IMG/VR virus record: IMGVR_UViG_3300021963_000661 | Location: 1-23,440 of that record | Reading direction: 5' to 3' (one strand) | DNA from: a virus | DNA length: 23,440 nucleotides | Translations under genes and position numbers: made by a program | Notes under the pieces: generated by a model | Database searches by the model: none | What the model was told of the DNA's origin: nothing | The model's input: the letters and a program-made list of their open reading frames with translations, nothing else | In this document: positions 4,360 to 14,392 of the stretch, piece after piece | Position numbering within the stretch: position 1 is the first letter of the stretch | Layout: each line of letters starts with the position of its first letter

Positions 4360-4786
4360 GCTGCCTCTTTGCCTCGAGGTTCTTCAGCATGGCGTCGAAG
4401 ATTGACACTTCGTTTTGTATCGCGCCACCGTCCGGCCCGCTTACCTCGTGTTTTTGCACCTCAGACCAGCGCATTTGTGTTTTTGTCCACCAAATTGCCG
4501 AAGCTGTATCGCCTGCTACGGCCTTCTGAAACAAAGACCTTGCCACCTGCGAATTAGCCTTAGCCTTTCCTTCGGCTAACTCTTTAGTAAAGTGGCTCCG
4601 CAGCGTTTCAACATGAATGCCGTCACGCACTAAGCAAGCAATTTGATCTTGCGGTAACCCAACGCCAGATAAAGCCGCTACCTGCGCACGTTCCTGATCC
4701 GTCGGAACAAACGCGGGCCTTCCAGCGCCCTCACGGGATCCGCCCCATATTTTCTTTTTTAACGTCGGTTTTTCATGATCAGTCAT
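4349..4786 (-). CDS. terS: Terminase small subunit
   Basis: This is a 145-residue DNA-recognition subunit of terminase, which selects the packaging site and recruits the large subunit. The N-terminus has a basic, AT-hook-like GGSREGAGRP (residues 15-24), followed by a helical segment with HTH character (about 29-65, ending VETLRSHFTKEL). The C-terminal part has AIWWTKTQMRWSE, a signature I associate with small terminases of this type, and then a helix for oligomerisation or large-subunit contact. The gene overlaps the large terminase by 11 bases downstream and the ParB-methyltransferase gene by 8 bases upstream, so all three are translationally linked. Position next to the large terminase makes the call firm even though small subunits diverge strongly. 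Confidence 0.85.
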   Translation of the reverse strand: MTDHEKPTLKKKIWGGSREGAGRPAFVPTDQERAQVAALSGVGLPQDQIACLVRDGIHVETLRSHFTKELAEGKAKANSQVARSLFQKAVAGDTASAIWWTKTQMRWSEVQKHEVSGPDGGAIQNEVSIFDAMLKNLEAKRQLGE

Positions 4787-6005
4787 TAGTATTTACCTCA
4801 AGCAAGGCCTTCTTGCCCGTAAATTCCTCCCATCGTTTGACGATGACATCGCAGTATTTTGGGTCTATTTCCATCAAATACGCAATACGGCCATTCTTTT
4901 CTGCTGCTACTAAAGTAGTGCCTGAGCCTCCAAAACTATCCAAAACAATGTCGCCGCCTTTCGTGTTGTTAAGCATTTGATATTCAAACAACGCCACGGG
5001 CTTCATTGTCGGGTGTTCCACGCTTCGGTTTGGCTTGTCAAACTCCAGAATAGTTGTTTGCTTTCTGTCAGCCGCCCAAAGGTGCCCTGCGCCTTCTTTC
5101 CAACCATATAAGCATGGTTCGTGTTTCCAGTGATAGTCTTGACGGCCCATGACAATCGTTGATTTCTTCCAAATCAGACACTGCCGCACTTTCCAGCCAG
5201 CGTCTTTGGCTGCGCCGCGGAAGTTATATCCCTCCGAATCAGCGTGCCAGATGTAAAAAACCGCGCCGGCTTTCATGACCGCGTCCGCTGCCGTATAAGC
5301 ATCTCGCAGAAACTGCCGGAACTTCTCGTCGTCCATACTGTCGTTCTTAATTGTCAGCGCGTCCTTTGTTTTGCCTTCATAAGCGACGTTGTACGGCGGA
5401 TCTGTAAGCCACATATCAACCTGCCGACCATCGCACAGCTTTTCCAGATGATCGATGCTCGTACTATCGCCACACATAAGCCTATGCTTACCAAGTATCC
5501 AGATGTCGCCAGGCTTAGTGATTGGCTCTGGTGGAGCCTCAGGGACAGCGTCCTCGTCCGTCAATCCTTCCGTGACGTTGACTGGAATGAGATTGTTTAA
5601 TTCCTCGTCAGTAAACCCTAAGATACTTAAATTAAAGTCCGTTGCCTTTAATTCTTGTATTTCTAAAGCCAAAAGTTCCGTGTCCCAACCCGCGTTTAAA
5701 GCAAGTTTATTGTCTGCAATAACGTATGCGCGTTTTTTTTCTTCGCTCCAATTGCTTGCTATGACTACCGGAACTTGTTTGTAATTTAACTTTTGCGCGG
5801 CTGCCAGCCTCCCGTGGCCGGCGATGATCATTCCCGTTTCATCAATAAGAATCGGTACAGTCCAGCCCCACTCTTTTATGCTAGCGGCAAGTTGGCTGAT
5901 TTGCGCATCTGAGTGCGTCCTACTGTTTCTTGCGTAGGGGATTAAGCGGCTGATATCCCAGATTTCTATGTTTTCTGCTGGTCCCATCACATATTCCAGT
6001 GACAT
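4779..6005 (-). CDS. ParB-like domain fused to DNA methyltransferase
   Basis: Residues about 13-110 form a ParB/Srx-like domain: LIPYARNSRTHSD, then GMIIAGHGRLAAAQKL, the family's catalytic-type motif. Residues 165-400 form a site-specific DNA methyltransferase of the N6-adenine/N4-cytosine class. DPPY (202-205) precedes HPTMKP (331-336) and the S-adenosylmethionine-binding FGGSGT (358-363), the beta-class order. Such fusions are common in phages and act as orphan methylases that shield DNA from host restriction or mark packaging sites. It is the first gene of the late operon and overlaps the small terminase gene by 8 bases. The start at 6005 leaves only about 5 bases after the predicted transcription start from the promoter at 6017-6045. 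An alternative ATG at 5985-5987 (MGPAENIEIW), with GGAA upstream, fits that promoter better. Confidence 0.9.
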   Translation of the reverse strand: MSLEYVMGPAENIEIWDISRLIPYARNSRTHSDAQISQLAASIKEWGWTVPILIDETGMIIAGHGRLAAAQKLNYKQVPVVIASNWSEEKKRAYVIADNKLALNAGWDTELLALEIQELKATDFNLSILGFTDEELNNLIPVNVTEGLTDEDAVPEAPPEPITKPGDIWILGKHRLMCGDSTSIDHLEKLCDGRQVDMWLTDPPYNVAYEGKTKDALTIKNDSMDDEKFRQFLRDAYTAADAVMKAGAVFYIWHADSEGYNFRGAAKDAGWKVRQCLIWKKSTIVMGRQDYHWKHEPCLYGWKEGAGHLWAADRKQTTILEFDKPNRSVEHPTMKPVALFEYQMLNNTKGGDIVLDSFGGSGTTLVAAEKNGRIAYLMEIDPKYCDVIVKRWEEFTGKKALLEVNTND

Positions 6006-9937: not shown

Positions 9938-10039
9938 AATCTACCCTCGTCAAAGGTTCGTCGTCACTGAAGTTGGGCGTAGGCAGGCGGGTGACGAGTC
10001 CGCTTTTCCCTCCGTCGAGGTAGCCATGCCCGTTGGAGG

Positions 10040-10494: not shown

Positions 10495-10514
10495 TGCAAC
10501 CCCTCGGAAAACAG

Positions 10515-10557
10515 TTGACAAGGTGTTCGAGATATGAAACACTTGCCTCGGAATCAA
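10515..10557. promoter_or_regulatory. Divergent early promoters with a palindromic operator
   Basis: Rightward: TTGACA (10515-10520), 17 bases, then a poor -10 AACACT (10538-10543). Leftward: TTGATT (complement of 10552-10557), 17 bases, then TATCTC (complement of 10529-10534). Between them is an imperfect 20-bp palindrome, GTGTTCGAGATATGAAACAC (10523-10542), covering both -10 sides. The direct repeat CCTCGGAA occurs at 10502-10509 and 10546-10553. The palindrome is a likely operator for the adjacent HTH protein, which would shut both promoters. Confidence 0.55.
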
Positions 10558-10573
10558 CCAACGGAGTACTGAC

Positions 10574-10744
10574 ATGAGAGATGACAACAGTGAATGGCAG
10601 CAGGTGATGGAAGAGCGCGAGAGGATGACTGAAGAGGCGTATCTCAGAGCGCGTAACGGGGTAGCAAGCCAGGAAGATTGGAGTTGGCTTGCAAGCGAAT
10701 TAGGGCTTACTTTTTACAAAAGGAATGACAATGTTTATATCTGA
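10574..10744 (+). CDS. Small hypothetical protein (56 residues), first gene of the rightward operon
   Basis: GGAG (10563-10566) lies 7 bases before the ATG, and the promoter at 10515-10543 lies directly upstream. The protein (MRDDNSEWQQVMEERERMTEEAYLRARNGVASQEDWSWLASELG) is acidic and helical. Its end overlaps the start of the SSB-like gene. No family is recognised. The position at the head of the early rightward transcript suggests an early takeover or regulatory protein. Confidence 0.65.
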   Translation: MRDDNSEWQQVMEERERMTEEAYLRARNGVASQEDWSWLASELGLTFYKRNDNVYI

Positions 10745-11447
10745 AGGCGGTACAACGGAGCGAGAGTTTAAGCTTGTTCCATCGGGAAGTCACCTAGCAA
10801 TTTGCTATGGGATCGTAGAGCTTGGAACCCAAAAGTATGTCTATATGGGCGAGGAAAAGGCCGGCAAACAGTTGCGGTTGATGTGGGAACTGCACGGCGA
10901 TGACGGCGATGGCGAGCCTCTTGCCTTGTCAGATGGCAGGCCGCTGTCGATCAGCCAGCGCTATACCAAAAGCCTGCACGAGAAGTCAAAGCTGCGGCAG
11001 CACATTGTTTCCTGGAGGGGCGGCAAGGACTTTACGCCTGAGGAGCTAGGTCAAGTCCGCGGCCAGAAGGGTTGGGATATCAGAAGCCTGCTTGGCAAGC
11101 ATTGCATGCTGATGATCAAACACTCGATCAAGGGTGATCGTACCTTTGCAAACGTAGACAACGTCACAACTGTTCCTGCAGTCATCAAAAAGCTCGGTCT
11201 ACCTACCCAACAGAATGAGTCAATCTATTTTAGTTTTGATCATTTCTCTGCTGAAGCGCTAAGTCAAGTCAGTCAAAACCTGCAGAAAACGATCATGCAA
11301 TCGCCAGAATATGAGCGTGCGTGTTCACCAAAACCTGCAGCAATAATTGGAAAGCCGTCAAAACATGCCGAGGCAGAGGATTGGTTTGACAAACACGATC
11401 AGCTTAACGGAATGAAAGGAATCGACGATGAAGATATCCCTTTCTAA
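10731..11447 (+). CDS. SSB-like phage protein with an acidic DEDIPF tip
   Basis: This 238-residue protein begins MFISEGGTTEREFKLVPSGSHLAICYGIVELGTQKYVY, an N-terminal beta-rich (OB-like) block I associate with phage single-stranded-DNA-binding proteins. A helical region follows, and the C-terminus ends EDIPF. E. coli SSB ends DFDDDIPF, the tip that recruits exonucleases, RecO, PriA and others, so the match is functionally suggestive. The ATG at 10731 is preferred because AGGA lies 6 bases upstream; the ATG at 10725 is too close to it. The last 20 bases overlap the next gene. A RecB-type exonuclease further along the same operon is a likely partner. Confidence 0.75.
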   Translation: MFISEGGTTEREFKLVPSGSHLAICYGIVELGTQKYVYMGEEKAGKQLRLMWELHGDDGDGEPLALSDGRPLSISQRYTKSLHEKSKLRQHIVSWRGGKDFTPEELGQVRGQKGWDIRSLLGKHCMLMIKHSIKGDRTFANVDNVTTVPAVIKKLGLPTQQNESIYFSFDHFSAEALSQVSQNLQKTIMQSPEYERACSPKPAAIIGKPSKHAEAEDWFDKHDQLNGMKGIDDEDIPF

Positions 11448-11697
11448 GCCGCGTAAAACGCCCAAGGCTCCCAAAACTTTTTTGGACCCGAGCGTTGTAG
11501 TACCCAAGATTGAAGATCGCATGGCCGAGCGGGTGTGGACCAAGGTCTTTATTTTATTTCAAGTTATTGCAGTCCCGCACTGGACTAAAAGAGGGATTTG
11601 GGTCTTGCCAACTCGGGAGGAGCTGACTGAGCCAGAGTTAATCAACAGGGGCGCTCACGAAACCACCACACTTCTTTGGCCTAGGTATTGGATGTAA
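11428..11697 (+). CDS. Hypothetical basic protein (89 residues)
   Basis: AAAGGA lies 7 bases before the ATG, and the gene overlaps the SSB-like gene by 20 bases. The first 15 residues are basic and Pro-rich (MKISLSKPRKTPKAPK). The middle has a short hydrophobic segment (VFILFQVIAV), and the end is rich in Trp (GIWVLPTREELTEPE, LLWPRYWM). It is too short for a confident membrane call. No family is recognised. It sits between the SSB-like and the RAMP-like genes. Confidence 0.65.
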   Translation: MKISLSKPRKTPKAPKTFLDPSVVVPKIEDRMAERVWTKVFILFQVIAVPHWTKRGIWVLPTREELTEPELINRGAHETTTLLWPRYWM

Positions 11698-11723
11698 TTT
11701 AACTTTTTTATTTGGAGCTATAC

Positions 11724-12293
11724 ATGAAAACAGTATCAGTTGAAATCCGCGGCACATCACCTCTTTTAATCCACCGCTTCGGCGAAGAGGCCGAGCAAGG
11801 CAAAGCAACCCGTCGGGTGAAGGTTGACAACTCAAACCCACGCGATGAGGCCACCAAGGTAGCTTATATCGCCTCTGATGGCACGTTTTACTTCAACGCT
11901 TTTAGTATTCCTGCTTGCATGGCTAATGCCGGTGCTAACCACAAAATGCGCGGCAGCAGGAAGACGCTGAAATTTATTGTCCCCTCTGCGGTTCGCATGA
12001 ACAGCGACTCGGTAACGATCCTAAACGGCGCCGGTCCCGCAAAGGATTTCGAGGTTGATAGCCGGCCTGTGACTATTCCAGCAACCAAAGGTCGGATCAT
12101 GCGCCACCGCCCGCGGTTTGACTGCTGGGGAGCCAAGTTTGATTTGGTCGTTAATGACAACCTGCTCGGCATTGATGATGCACATCGCTTGTTGACCGAG
12201 GCCGGCGAGTACATTGGTATCGGCGATTTTCGACCCGAGAAGCGCGGGCCATTTGGCTGCTTCAGGGTTACAGCGTTTGAAGAGCAGTCGTAA
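11724..12293 (+). CDS. RAMP/Cas7-like phage protein (189 residues)
   Basis: The start at ATG 11724 has GGAG 6 bases upstream; a TTG at 11712 would read through that site. The order of motifs resembles RAMP-fold (ferredoxin-like) RNA-binding proteins such as Cas7: an opening strand VSVEIRGTSPLLIHRF (residues 4-19), a strand-turn-helix YFNAFSIPACMANAG (56-70) in the place of the RAMP IPGSslkG motif, then a basic KGRIMRHRPRFD, and a glycine-rich end YIGIGDFRPEKRGPFGCFRV (163-182). Proteins of this type occur in many phages without known function. No histidine or aspartate arrangement proves nuclease activity. The 610-bp GGYNN repeat array with structured hairpins begins at the base after its stop codon. 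That adjacency is direct observation; RNA binding and a link to the array are inference. Confidence applies to the gene being real; the RAMP assignment is nearer 0.45. Confidence 0.8.
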   Translation: MKTVSVEIRGTSPLLIHRFGEEAEQGKATRRVKVDNSNPRDEATKVAYIASDGTFYFNAFSIPACMANAGANHKMRGSRKTLKFIVPSAVRMNSDSVTILNGAGPAKDFEVDSRPVTIPATKGRIMRHRPRFDCWGAKFDLVVNDNLLGIDDAHRLLTEAGEYIGIGDFRPEKRGPFGCFRVTAFEEQS

Positions 12294-12361
12294 GGTCTGG
12301 TCAGGCCTGGTCTGGCAGGGTTAGGTGCGGCCTGGTGGGGCGCGGTTTGGTGAGGTTTGGA

Positions 12362-12402
12362 ACTGAGAAATCAGTGGGTCGGGTGGTATTCCATCCTTCC
12401 CA
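12362..12402 (+). ncRNA. Array hairpin, copy 1 (GNRA stem plus 28-nt stem-loop)
   Basis: ACTGA-GAAA-TCAGT (12362-12375) forms a 5-bp stem with a GNRA tetraloop. The 28-nt element 12375-12402 then folds on itself: pairs G-C at 2-27, 3-26 and 4-25, a T-T mismatch at 5-24, and G-C, G-C, G-T, T-A, G-C, G-C for 7-22 to 12-17. GTGCTTTTTCA follows. The wobble pair and the GNRA loop exist only on the plus strand. Confidence 0.75.
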
Positions 12403-12470
12403 GTGCTTTTTCAGGCACGGTCTGGCCGGGCGTGGTTGGGTGCCGTTGGGTAGGGTCAGGTAAGGCATGG

Positions 12471-12511
12471 GCTGAGAGATCAGCGGATTGGGCAGCGTGC
12501 TGCTCCTTCCA
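12471..12511 (+). ncRNA. Array hairpin, copy 2 (GNRA stem plus 28-nt stem-loop)
   Basis: GCTGA-GAGA-TCAGC (12471-12484) has the same 5-bp stem length as copy 1, with its outer pair changed from A-T to G-C and a GNRA loop kept. The 28-nt element 12484-12511 differs from copy 1 by paired changes: 4-25 G-C to A-T, 10-19 T-A to C-G and 11-18 G-C to A-T. The T-T mismatch at 5-24 is kept. GTGCTTTTTCA follows, as in copy 1. Confidence 0.75.
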
Positions 12512-12668
12512 GTGCTTTTTCAGGCGTGGCAAGGCACGGCACGGTCAGGCCGGGTTAGGTGCGGTCAGGTTTGGCTCGGTGTGGTGTTGCGCGGCGAGGT
12601 TTGGTCCGGCAAGGCAAGGTGTCGTGAGGTTAGGCGATGCACGGTTAGGTTTGGTGTGGCGAGGGTAG

Positions 12669-12696
12669 TGGGTTGGGCGGCTTGCTGCCTATCCCA
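12669..12696 (+). ncRNA. Array hairpin, copy 3 (28-nt stem-loop)
   Basis: It has the same 28-nt length and T-T mismatch at 5-24 as the other copies. Pairs 4-25 (G-C), 10-19 (C-G), 12-17 (G-C) and 13-16 (C-G) hold, and 7-22 and 11-18 are G-T wobbles. It is preceded by GGGTAG instead of a GNRA stem and followed by GTGCCTTTGACTTT. It is most like copy 4 in its flanks. Confidence 0.7.
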
Positions 12697-12796
12697 GTGC
12701 CTTTGACTTTGGTCGGGTATGGCAGTGTTCGGCTCTGCAAGGCAAGGTTGGGTATGGCGCGTCCGGGCTGGGTCCGGCAGGGTATGGTAAGGGTAG

Positions 12797-12824
12797 TGGA
12801 TAGGGTAGCGTGCTACCCCTTCCA
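12797..12824 (+). ncRNA. Array hairpin, copy 4 (28-nt stem-loop)
   Basis: This is the most regular copy: GGGTAGC and GCTACCC (positions 7-13 and 16-22) pair perfectly, and TGGA pairs with TCCA outside the two-base internal loop. Relative to copy 3, 4-25 is A-T for G-C, 10-19 is T-A for C-G and 11-18 is A-T for G-T. It is preceded by GGGTAG and followed by GTGCCTTTGAATCCA. Confidence 0.75.
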
Positions 12825-12918
12825 GTGCCTTTGAATCCAGCGGGGTAAGGCGGGGCACGGCGGTGCATGGCAACGCAAGGTACGGTATGGTGAGGCACGG
12901 TGAAGATAGAAGGTTAAA

Positions 12919-13707
12919 TTGTTAACTCGGTACTTGATTTGTTTTGGCTGGGAAGGGTTCGGAGACAGGCTGCAGTCTTTGAGCTACTGCATTAATCTGG
13001 CTCGATCACGCAATCGGGTGTTGTTTGTTGACTGGTCTGATCGGATGTGGTCCGGTGGATTTCACGAGTTCTTCGATCTTGTGGATCTGCCGTACACCAC
13101 AGTCCGGCCAGAAGGACCAACTGACCCGAGCATCTTTGAGCACCTGAGAGTGCCAGTTGATGATTGGATTTATGACCTCAAGGAGTATCGAATTGATGAT
13201 TCCTCGCATCGCATTTCGGTTTATCCTGGTGTTGGATTTCGCGCCTACAACTATTATTTGCTAAGTCTGCATTTGCGGTTTAACAAGCAAACGGCTGAAG
13301 AAGTTCAGCGGGAAATGCAGCGCTTAGTGCCCACTGAAATGAAGCTCGTTCATCTGAGGGGCACTGATCGGGCGTGGAAGGCTGAGGATATTCATAAGTT
13401 TGCAAAACAACATGGCAACGTAGGACTGATTTCAGATGATCAGAAAGCTGTTGATGAGTACCTGAAGGTTTCGCCAGCGGTTTCTTTGTGTGCTGCAGAG
13501 ACTGATAGTACGCCGCTGCACAAAGGAAAGGTCACGCGAGAAAAGATTATTCGGATGCTAACGGACTTTTGTTTGCTGAGTCGGTTTGGTGCTGGAGCGC
13601 TCAACGATCAAAGCCTTTTTTATTATGTAGCAAAGATGGTTGATGTTAAGCGATGGTTAGAACCAAGCAAAGAAGAAATTCAGTATGAAGGTTTTTTACT
13701 TCGATGA
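12919..13707 (+). CDS. Fucosyltransferase-like glycosyltransferase (O-FucT/NodZ fold)
   Basis: The protein has 262 residues. GFGDRLQSL (13-21) matches the N-terminal nucleotide-fold loop, and VHLRGTDR (144-151) matches the HxRxTD-type motif I of alpha-1,6- and protein O-fucosyltransferases and NodZ, which bind GDP-fucose. It probably transfers a sugar to a phage or host surface glycan, or modifies a phage component; the acceptor is unknown. The start is TTG (12919-12921), with AGAAGG five bases upstream; no in-frame ATG precedes it. That Shine-Dalgarno follows the GGYNN array after only 4 bases (array end 12903, SD 12908), so the array is the leader of this gene. It overlaps the next glycosyltransferase by ATGA, making a two-gene unit. 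Confidence 0.78.
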   Translation: MLTRYLICFGWEGFGDRLQSLSYCINLARSRNRVLFVDWSDRMWSGGFHEFFDLVDLPYTTVRPEGPTDPSIFEHLRVPVDDWIYDLKEYRIDDSSHRISVYPGVGFRAYNYYLLSLHLRFNKQTAEEVQREMQRLVPTEMKLVHLRGTDRAWKAEDIHKFAKQHGNVGLISDDQKAVDEYLKVSPAVSLCAAETDSTPLHKGKVTREKIIRMLTDFCLLSRFGAGALNDQSLFYYVAKMVDVKRWLEPSKEEIQYEGFLLR

Positions 13708-14384
13708 ACATCCTTGCAATGTCTGCGTTTGGTGACAATCCTCGTTACGTTATCGGTGCATATAAACAAATTTTTTTAGCTAAGAGGTTTTTTCCAGACT
13801 TTGAAGTTTGGTTATTTGTTGATTGCCCAGAAAGATATCGTTGTGATGCAAAAGTAATTGGGATGCCAAACAAAACAGATGGAACTTTTTGGAGGTTTTT
13901 GGCTGGCGTTCAAACGGGCGTGGTTATTTTTAGAGATGTTGATAGCCGCATTTCCATGCGTGAAGTTATAGCAACAACCGAATGGATTTCAAGCGGCAAA
14001 ACACTTCACATCATGCGAGATCACGAAAGGCACAATAGCATTCATAACCCAATTTTGGCCGGCATGTTTGGAATAAGAGGGCCATGGCCATCTTCAATAA
14101 TTGGTCCCTTGATGACTTGTATGCATCGACCATTTGATTATGGAAACGATCAAGGGTTTTTACGCGATCATGTTTTTTCATTGTTAAGTCAGGACGCCTT
14201 GATTCATTCGCTTGATGAGGGTTGGTTCGGCGAAAGTAGGAAGCATTTAGTAAACCCTTACAACTGGATTGGACAGGGATGGGATGAAGATGATCGACCT
14301 ATGTATGCCAATTCAAATGACGGTTTTGTTGGTTTTGACAGGTTTTCTGTGCCCGCACAATTTCGATTCAATGATTATTTTTAG
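13704..14384 (+). CDS. Probable GT-A type glycosyltransferase (226 residues)
   Basis: The N-terminus ILAMSAFGDNPRYVIGAYKQIFLAKRFFPDFEVWLFVD and the FRDVDSR segment (76-82, with D78 and D80 as a DxD-like pair) suggest a GT-A fold enzyme that binds a nucleotide sugar through a metal ion. A later IMRDHERHNSIHNPILAGMFGIRG block and DYGNDQGFLRDH resemble phage and LPS glycosyltransferases of this size. The gene overlaps the fucosyltransferase-like gene by 4 bases, so the two likely act on the same glycan. It is visibly more AT-rich than its neighbours, with many T and A runs, which suggests separate acquisition. The exact GT family is not assigned. Confidence 0.7.
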   Translation: MNILAMSAFGDNPRYVIGAYKQIFLAKRFFPDFEVWLFVDCPERYRCDAKVIGMPNKTDGTFWRFLAGVQTGVVIFRDVDSRISMREVIATTEWISSGKTLHIMRDHERHNSIHNPILAGMFGIRGPWPSSIIGPLMTCMHRPFDYGNDQGFLRDHVFSLLSQDALIHSLDEGWFGESRKHLVNPYNWIGQGWDEDDRPMYANSNDGFVGFDRFSVPAQFRFNDYF

Positions 14385-14392
14385 GAAAATTT

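Follow-up and report, generated by a model that had tools for sequence, protein, structure and literature searches.

What is the row of hairpins that lies downstream of a small gene in this virus, and do the GNRA tetraloops beside some of them act as docking elements? The window, by which we mean the whole stretch of DNA analyzed, comprises 23,440 bases and is a virus record according to both the window itself and the sequence collections. Positions 12294 to 12903 on the + strand proved to be a row of GGYNN pentamer arrays with hairpins in between, adjoining the gene at 11712-12293. A GGYNN array is present on either side of each hairpin, which the coordinates of the initial annotation had missed. 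Runs of nine consecutive GGYNN units gave ten overlapping matches, compared with none expected from 100 shuffles.

A predicted VIPR locus

This arrangement resembles the Viral Interference Programmable Repeat (VIPR) systems of a preprint first posted in April 2026 (PMC13142463; bioRxiv 2026.04.26.720920), the sole report found in a literature search under the VIPR names. According to its main text, a VIPR system consists of a RAMP protein, Vipr, and of vrRNAs in which 9 to 16 GGY/NN repeats precede a structured 3' tail; double-stranded DNA is recognized through the NN pairs, with a one-base skip, and most targets are competing phages. At the window locus, sequence and model together revealed a gene for a RAMP/Csm3-like protein and, downstream of it in the same orientation, five to six GGY/NN tracts, four of which have a structured tail at their end. 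The features are as follows.

11712-12293, + strand: vipr gene (193 aa; phrog_4652; RAMP/Cas7-like)
12294-12358, + strand: vrRNA 1 repeat tract, 13 GGYNN units, 0 aberrant
12359-12414, + strand: vrRNA 1 tail, subtype A, with the GNRA stem at 12362-12375 or the favored outer helix 12363-12370/12407-12414
12414-12468, + strand: vrRNA 2 repeat tract, 11 units, 1 aberrant
12469-12523, + strand: vrRNA 2 tail, subtype A, with the GNRA stem at 12471-12484 or the favored outer helix 12472-12479/12516-12523
12523-12587, + strand: vrRNA 3a repeat tract, 13 units, 0 aberrant; the window has lost the tail of this guide
12588-12662, + strand: vrRNA 3b repeat tract, 15 units, 3 aberrant; in the window it is fused to 3a
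12660-12705, + strand: vrRNA 3b tail, subtype B (GGGTAG), outer helix 12660-12667/12698-12705
12711-12790, + strand: vrRNA 4 repeat tract, 16 units, 3 aberrant
12788-12833, + strand: vrRNA 4 tail, subtype B (GGGTAG), outer helix 12788-12795/12826-12833
12844-12903, + strand: vrRNA 5 repeat tract, 12 units, 2 aberrant; no recognizable tail

Tandem GGY/NN repeats thus lie directly beside vipr, and structured 3' tails follow tracts 1, 2, 3b and 4, with none for 3a (lost) or 5. The last base of the vrRNA 1 tail (12414) is also the first base of the following array. The NN series of vrRNA 1 reads CT CA CT CT AG TA GC CT GG GC TT GA TT. The block of later tracts carries more aberrant units than the first three tracts, as though it were decaying. 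We consider it highly probable that the locus is a phage VIPR system, with guides capped by tails, an outer helix in those tails, and at least one guide directed at an integrase. Experiments on other VIPRs in the preprint suggest how it would work: one tract plus its tail would make up a guide RNA, the GGY repeats would be where Vipr subunits load, and the NN pairs would recognize double-stranded DNA, skipping one base between one pair and the next, and would block transcription of the target. The hairpins would then cap the guides as their 3' tails and probably serve as a handle, whether for the protein or for processing.

The adjoining gene encodes a protein with a predicted RAMP fold

The vipr product matched phrog_4652 (E 4.9e-22), a family of unknown function in PHROGs. 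Its AlphaFold model, built with 50 homologues, had a pLDDT of 85.2 and a pTM of 0.81. The best Foldseek match of this model was Csm3 (6xn3_F, E 1.9e-6); 86 rows had E values up to 0.001, and the best 50 of these 86 were all RAMPs, either class 1 or Cas7-11/type VII. With VIA-align, the best match was again a Csm3 (6ifk_E), with Z 11.2 over 167 residues, 12% identity and an rmsd of 4.3. The C-terminal part of the protein reads GIGDFRPEKRGPFG..FRV, and residues G14, L18, F136, W139, G169, R174 and P175 are invariant in 28 of 28 homologues. Pfam and PADLOC searches with the RAMP protein returned nothing useful, PADLOC giving no match at E values up to 10 for the window protein and nine homologues.

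For the comparison with Vipr of phage SUSP1 we used the annotated ORF agp039, which was picked by the family profile (E 1.1e-51), as the preprint text carries no accession for this protein. The window protein matched it by BLASTP with an E value of 2e-11 and 24% identity, and hhalign of the window protein's group against it gave a probability of 98.7. A RAMP fold, a glycine-rich loop and kinship with SUSP1 Vipr are therefore all found in the window protein and, by analogy, it should bind guide RNAs. Phage and E. coli sequences searched by blastn contained no DNA relative of the locus.

Arrays and vipr genes occur together

The window's protein as query identified 34 viral loci, and in 33 of them arrays adjoin the gene; the remaining locus, L026, has a degenerate array only. 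A search with the distant LESphi2 homologue yielded 46 loci. Every one has an array on the coding strand, the criterion being 9 or more of 12 GG in phase no farther than 1 kb away; on the opposite strand of these loci, never more than 5 GG of 12 were in phase. Among loci from bacterial genomes, arrays at the threshold used were present in 8 of 10.

The reverse test was a scan by the repeat pattern alone (fourteen GGYNN units), which detected at least 120 loci. Among the 120 array loci listed, 88 encode Vipr within 1 kb of the array, and 87 of these 88 genes are on the same strand as the array, the exception (L221) being a fragment. No vipr gene was detected in the other 32 of the listed loci, 18 of which have the array within 800 bases of the locus end. 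A side set of 80 loci collected by their exonuclease contained a vipr gene only in L036, which lies on the same contig as L002. These figures provide an independent count of how tightly the arrays accompany the protein. Two departures from the usual pattern were observed. At 3161-3513 of L178, another type of tail, GCCTTA-...-TAGGGC, occurs four times after arrays on the - strand. In phage phiHSIC (L118, 3826-3900), a five-base periodicity of GC, not GG, lies beside a distant Vipr homologue and perhaps represents a changed repeat consensus.

Two tail subtypes share one predicted outer helix

The sequences that the initial annotation had pointed out are present: ACTGA-GAAA-TCAGT at 12362-12375 and GCTGA-GAGA-TCAGC at 12471-12484 can be read directly, their closing pairs differ (A-T versus G-C), and each stem adjoins the hairpin that follows. 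Copies 3 and 4 have GGGTAG in place of the stem, and the 3' flanks differ as well, with GTGCTTTTTCA in copies 1 and 2 versus GTGCCTTTGA in copies 3 and 4. The proposed division into subtypes 1/2 and 3/4 is borne out by the nearest relative, L002, whose vipr is 99% identical to that of the window. Its five tails are in the order A, A, A, B, B, that is, three with the GNRA stem and then two with GGGTAG, so that both subtypes are kept as blocks. Within this nearly identical pair of phages, the third of these tails is absent from the window (L002 4802-5024 versus window 12523-12662). Since the window has lost it, the tract of 28 units there represents two guides, 3a and 3b, fused.

The two loci also differ 3' of the array. 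In L002 the exonuclease gene starts directly after it; in the window, two ORFs of 262 and 226 aa with no Pfam or PHROG match lie between the last array and the exonuclease gene (12904-14392), and because of this difference the ORF pair looks like an insertion. Judging by sequence, the two products may resemble glycosyltransferases.

Folded as single strands, the four tails were more stable than shuffled sequences (z of -5.6, -1.76, -4.95 and -4.89), with 14 of 200 shuffles as good as tail 2. The minimum-energy folds of tails 1 and 2 do not contain the GNRA stem. Instead, in tail 1 CTGAGAAA (12363-12370) pairs with TTTTTCAG (12407-12414) beyond the hairpin, and in tail 2 the 5' arm CTGAGAGA (12472-12479) pairs with the 3' arm TTTTTCAG (12516-12523). 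The probability of the GNRA stem was 0.0027 in tail 1 and 0.0066 in tail 2, and forcing it cost 4.0 and 3.8 kcal/mol, respectively, relative to the best fold. It did not form in a fold of the whole transcript either. For tails 3 and 4 the predicted pairings are CGAGGGTA with TGCCTTTG and TAAGGGTA with TGCCTTTG. Tails 1 and 2 would therefore each most likely be one long interrupted hairpin, and tails 3 and 4 would form the same outer helix in other letters.

Over 6 distinct tails the outer helix was 97.4% paired, compared with 44 to 61% when it was slid, with two-sided changes between subtypes A and B at columns 10-61 and 17-54. Such a helix, pairing the same two regions in both subtypes, would explain why a changed 5' element comes with a changed 3' flank. 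Different jobs for the two subtypes, as first suggested, look less likely in light of flanks that change together and stay paired; the subtypes look more like variants of a single outer helix.

The local GNRA stem plus hairpin 2 scored equally on the same tails (97.6% paired). Related tails were selected by a GG start and a stem at offset 1 to 3, and candidates that overran genes were removed by hand (L172 5104, L007, L008, L183 2843, L283, L232, L247 and L182); of 65 non-redundant candidates 49 were kept, and 48 remained after L270 was also taken out. Covariation was assessed on an alignment (A6) of 28 chosen tails. In these 28 tails from the wider family, stem 1, the position of the GNRA stem, was 95.5% paired and two of its four pairs had changed on both sides, hairpin 2 covaried strongly, and an alternative extension of hairpin 2 was also well kept. 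Since the local stem counts as well and stem 1 covaries, the long helix is favored by energy alone.

The loop of stem 1 gave a different picture. Thirty-one different loops occur among the 48 tails and just five are GNRA; four of those five come from the window/L002 pair of phages, where the stem probability is at most 0.009. Stem 1 is a real feature of the family, and its GNRA loop is not. GNRA tetraloop-receptor motifs have a conserved GNRA loop on a formed stem. The window resembles them in that two of its four copies carry a 5-bp stem with a GAAA or GAGA loop, and differs from them in that the loop is not conserved in relatives, the test that the initial annotation itself had named, and the stem lies outside the predicted fold. 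Its suggestion of a higher-order fold is plausible, but the GNRA docking loop on which that suggestion was built is probably wrong. The GNRA stem is probably a competing local fold retained from an ancestral stem.

The strongest competitor of the long interrupted hairpin is a GNRA stem that forms once the tail is mature and protein-bound, the loop of the stem then docking onto or kissing the 3' flank as a pseudoknot. A pseudoknot has been reported for the SUSP1 tail in the preprint's text (PMC13142463), and this reading would account for a stem 1 that is kept and covaries over the 28 tails and whose local probability reaches at least 0.5 in 14 of the 48 related tails. The GAAA of tail 1 can pair with TTTC in its 3' flank, and in a tail of L130 the two are reversed, TTTC facing GAAA. 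The longest run of Watson-Crick pairs that loop 1 can form with the 3' flank was 2.88, compared with 2.66 in permuted tails (16 of 500 permutations reached the observed value), yet with G-U pairs allowed 68 of 500 did so, and by duplex energy 93 of 500. Moreover, in several tails the loop is unable to pair with its own flank, and the energy cost of the stem in window tails 1 and 2 and the scarcity of GNRA loops speak against it. Complementarity between loop and flank is weakly above that of permuted tails, and a pseudoknot of loop 1 with the 3' flank is possible; as an account of the window tails we judge this reading unlikely. Less probable still, with perhaps a slim chance, is that the tails of copies 1 and 2 are transcription terminators, a hairpin followed by TTTTT, that separate the guides and that copies 3 and 4 have lost. 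Five T residues do follow the hairpin in copies 1 and 2, and 12497-12515 is one of two terminator-like sites in 10500-13000, but shuffled sequences contained 2.8 such sites, copies 3 and 4 and most related tails have no T run, and in the predicted fold the T run pairs with the 5' arm.

Guide 3a is predicted to target integrase genes

The NN pairs of guide 3a are GT AA AC AC CA CG TA GC CA TT TC GT. By the one-base-skip rule, in codon register and with a free third base, they translate as V K T T Q R Y A H L S V. Read in this way, guide 3a spells VKTTQRYAHLSV, the catalytic motif of tyrosine integrases. An exact scan of viral contigs with nine NN pairs of this guide gave four matches, two of them identical over the 39 bases compared. 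All four are in open frames, in codon register, at KTTQRYAHL or NTTQRYAHL, the integrase active-site motif. Guide 3a also had one match with up to 3 mismatches among 303 genomes from the class of a Rhodoferax locus, again in an integrase, and the reversed pattern had none in the same genomes. All five database matches are in integrase genes; Pfam Phage_integrase was detected in the four target proteins scanned, and the fifth (L306) is a near-copy of L303. Among 533 guides parsed from all loci, only those of the window and L002 spell the motif, the next best reaching 13 of 20 letters.

Other target searches were negative. Guides 1, 2 (in the L002 version) and 4 had no exact match in viral contigs, guide 3a had no match in the four records searched, including that of L002, and the fetched loci (2.56 Mb; 264 of 490 guides) contained no excess of targets for any skip length, one included. 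The window itself has a match to int-alpA RNA (RF02996) at 9961-10030 on the - strand (36.8 bits versus a gathering score of 35.8); despite this match, the scanned window proteins included no integrase. Elsewhere in the window (4779-6005, - strand), a ParB-like domain is fused to an N6/N4 DNA methylase, adjoining the terminase gene.

We also weighed an array that has no guide function and is instead a cluster of binding sites, in DNA or in vipr mRNA, for autoregulation. Arrays do flank the vipr gene on its coding strand, as such sites might, but GGY is kept while NN varies, a 12-codon integrase motif in guide 3a is unexpected of binding sites, and the preprint's text describes guide function in relatives (PMC13142463). 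We regard autoregulation by binding sites as highly improbable. Under the guide reading, the predicted target of guide 3a is the catalytic motif of phage tyrosine integrases, and on this prediction the system probably acts against competing prophages; we infer that the phage aims at competitors' integrases.

Relation to known systems

Like the VIPRs described in the preprint's main text, the window locus is phage-encoded, has a RAMP protein of about 20 kDa, tracts of about 9 to 16 GGY/NN units and a structured 3' tail, has a guide that can be read as coding sequence, the skipped bases falling on wobble positions, and is predicted to aim at competing elements. It differs in the low identity of its Vipr to the SUSP1 protein, in tails that favor a long outer helix, and in its integrase target, the word integrase being absent from that main text (PMC13142463). 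Unlike type II VIPRs (SUSP1/P. fulva), it has no vap1 homologue beside vipr, and for this reason we did not file it as type II. The proteins SUSP1 agp038, HY02_088, LES P21_8, Medea_08 and BWHA_42 match one another and no ORF of the window or of L002 to L035; the only matches in the vap1 search, to Uma_40, were translated arrays. In contrast to VIPRs with hammerhead-interspersed arrays, the window has no hammerhead recognizable by Rfam between its tracts: no hammerhead or other known RNA was found in 12280-12930 at E values up to 1, a search that a strongly diverged ribozyme would escape.

The fold and glycine-rich loop of the window Vipr are shared with the Csm3/Cas7 backbone subunits of type III CRISPR. 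Compared with these, it is a single small protein, about 12% identical, and goes with GGYNN tracts in place of spacers and repeats. A CRISPR array was rejected, as the repeats are 5-nt units, unlike CRISPR repeats.

The locus places an environmental phage among the carriers of a recently described family of RNA-guided systems related to CRISPR, a kind already known (2026). The locus shows that a convincing local motif, here the GNRA stem, can belong to a different and longer helix. Tentatively, and with somewhat more doubt than belief, we suggest that the tail may be a two-state handle switching between the local stem and the long hairpin and, jointly, that the phage carries a broad anti-integrase guide. 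If true, a codon-register guide over KTTQRYAHL would read a protein motif and ignore wobble bases. Because the VIPR code skips every third base, one such guide could hit the integrases of unrelated prophages, and the integrase catalytic motif is a testable target for this system.
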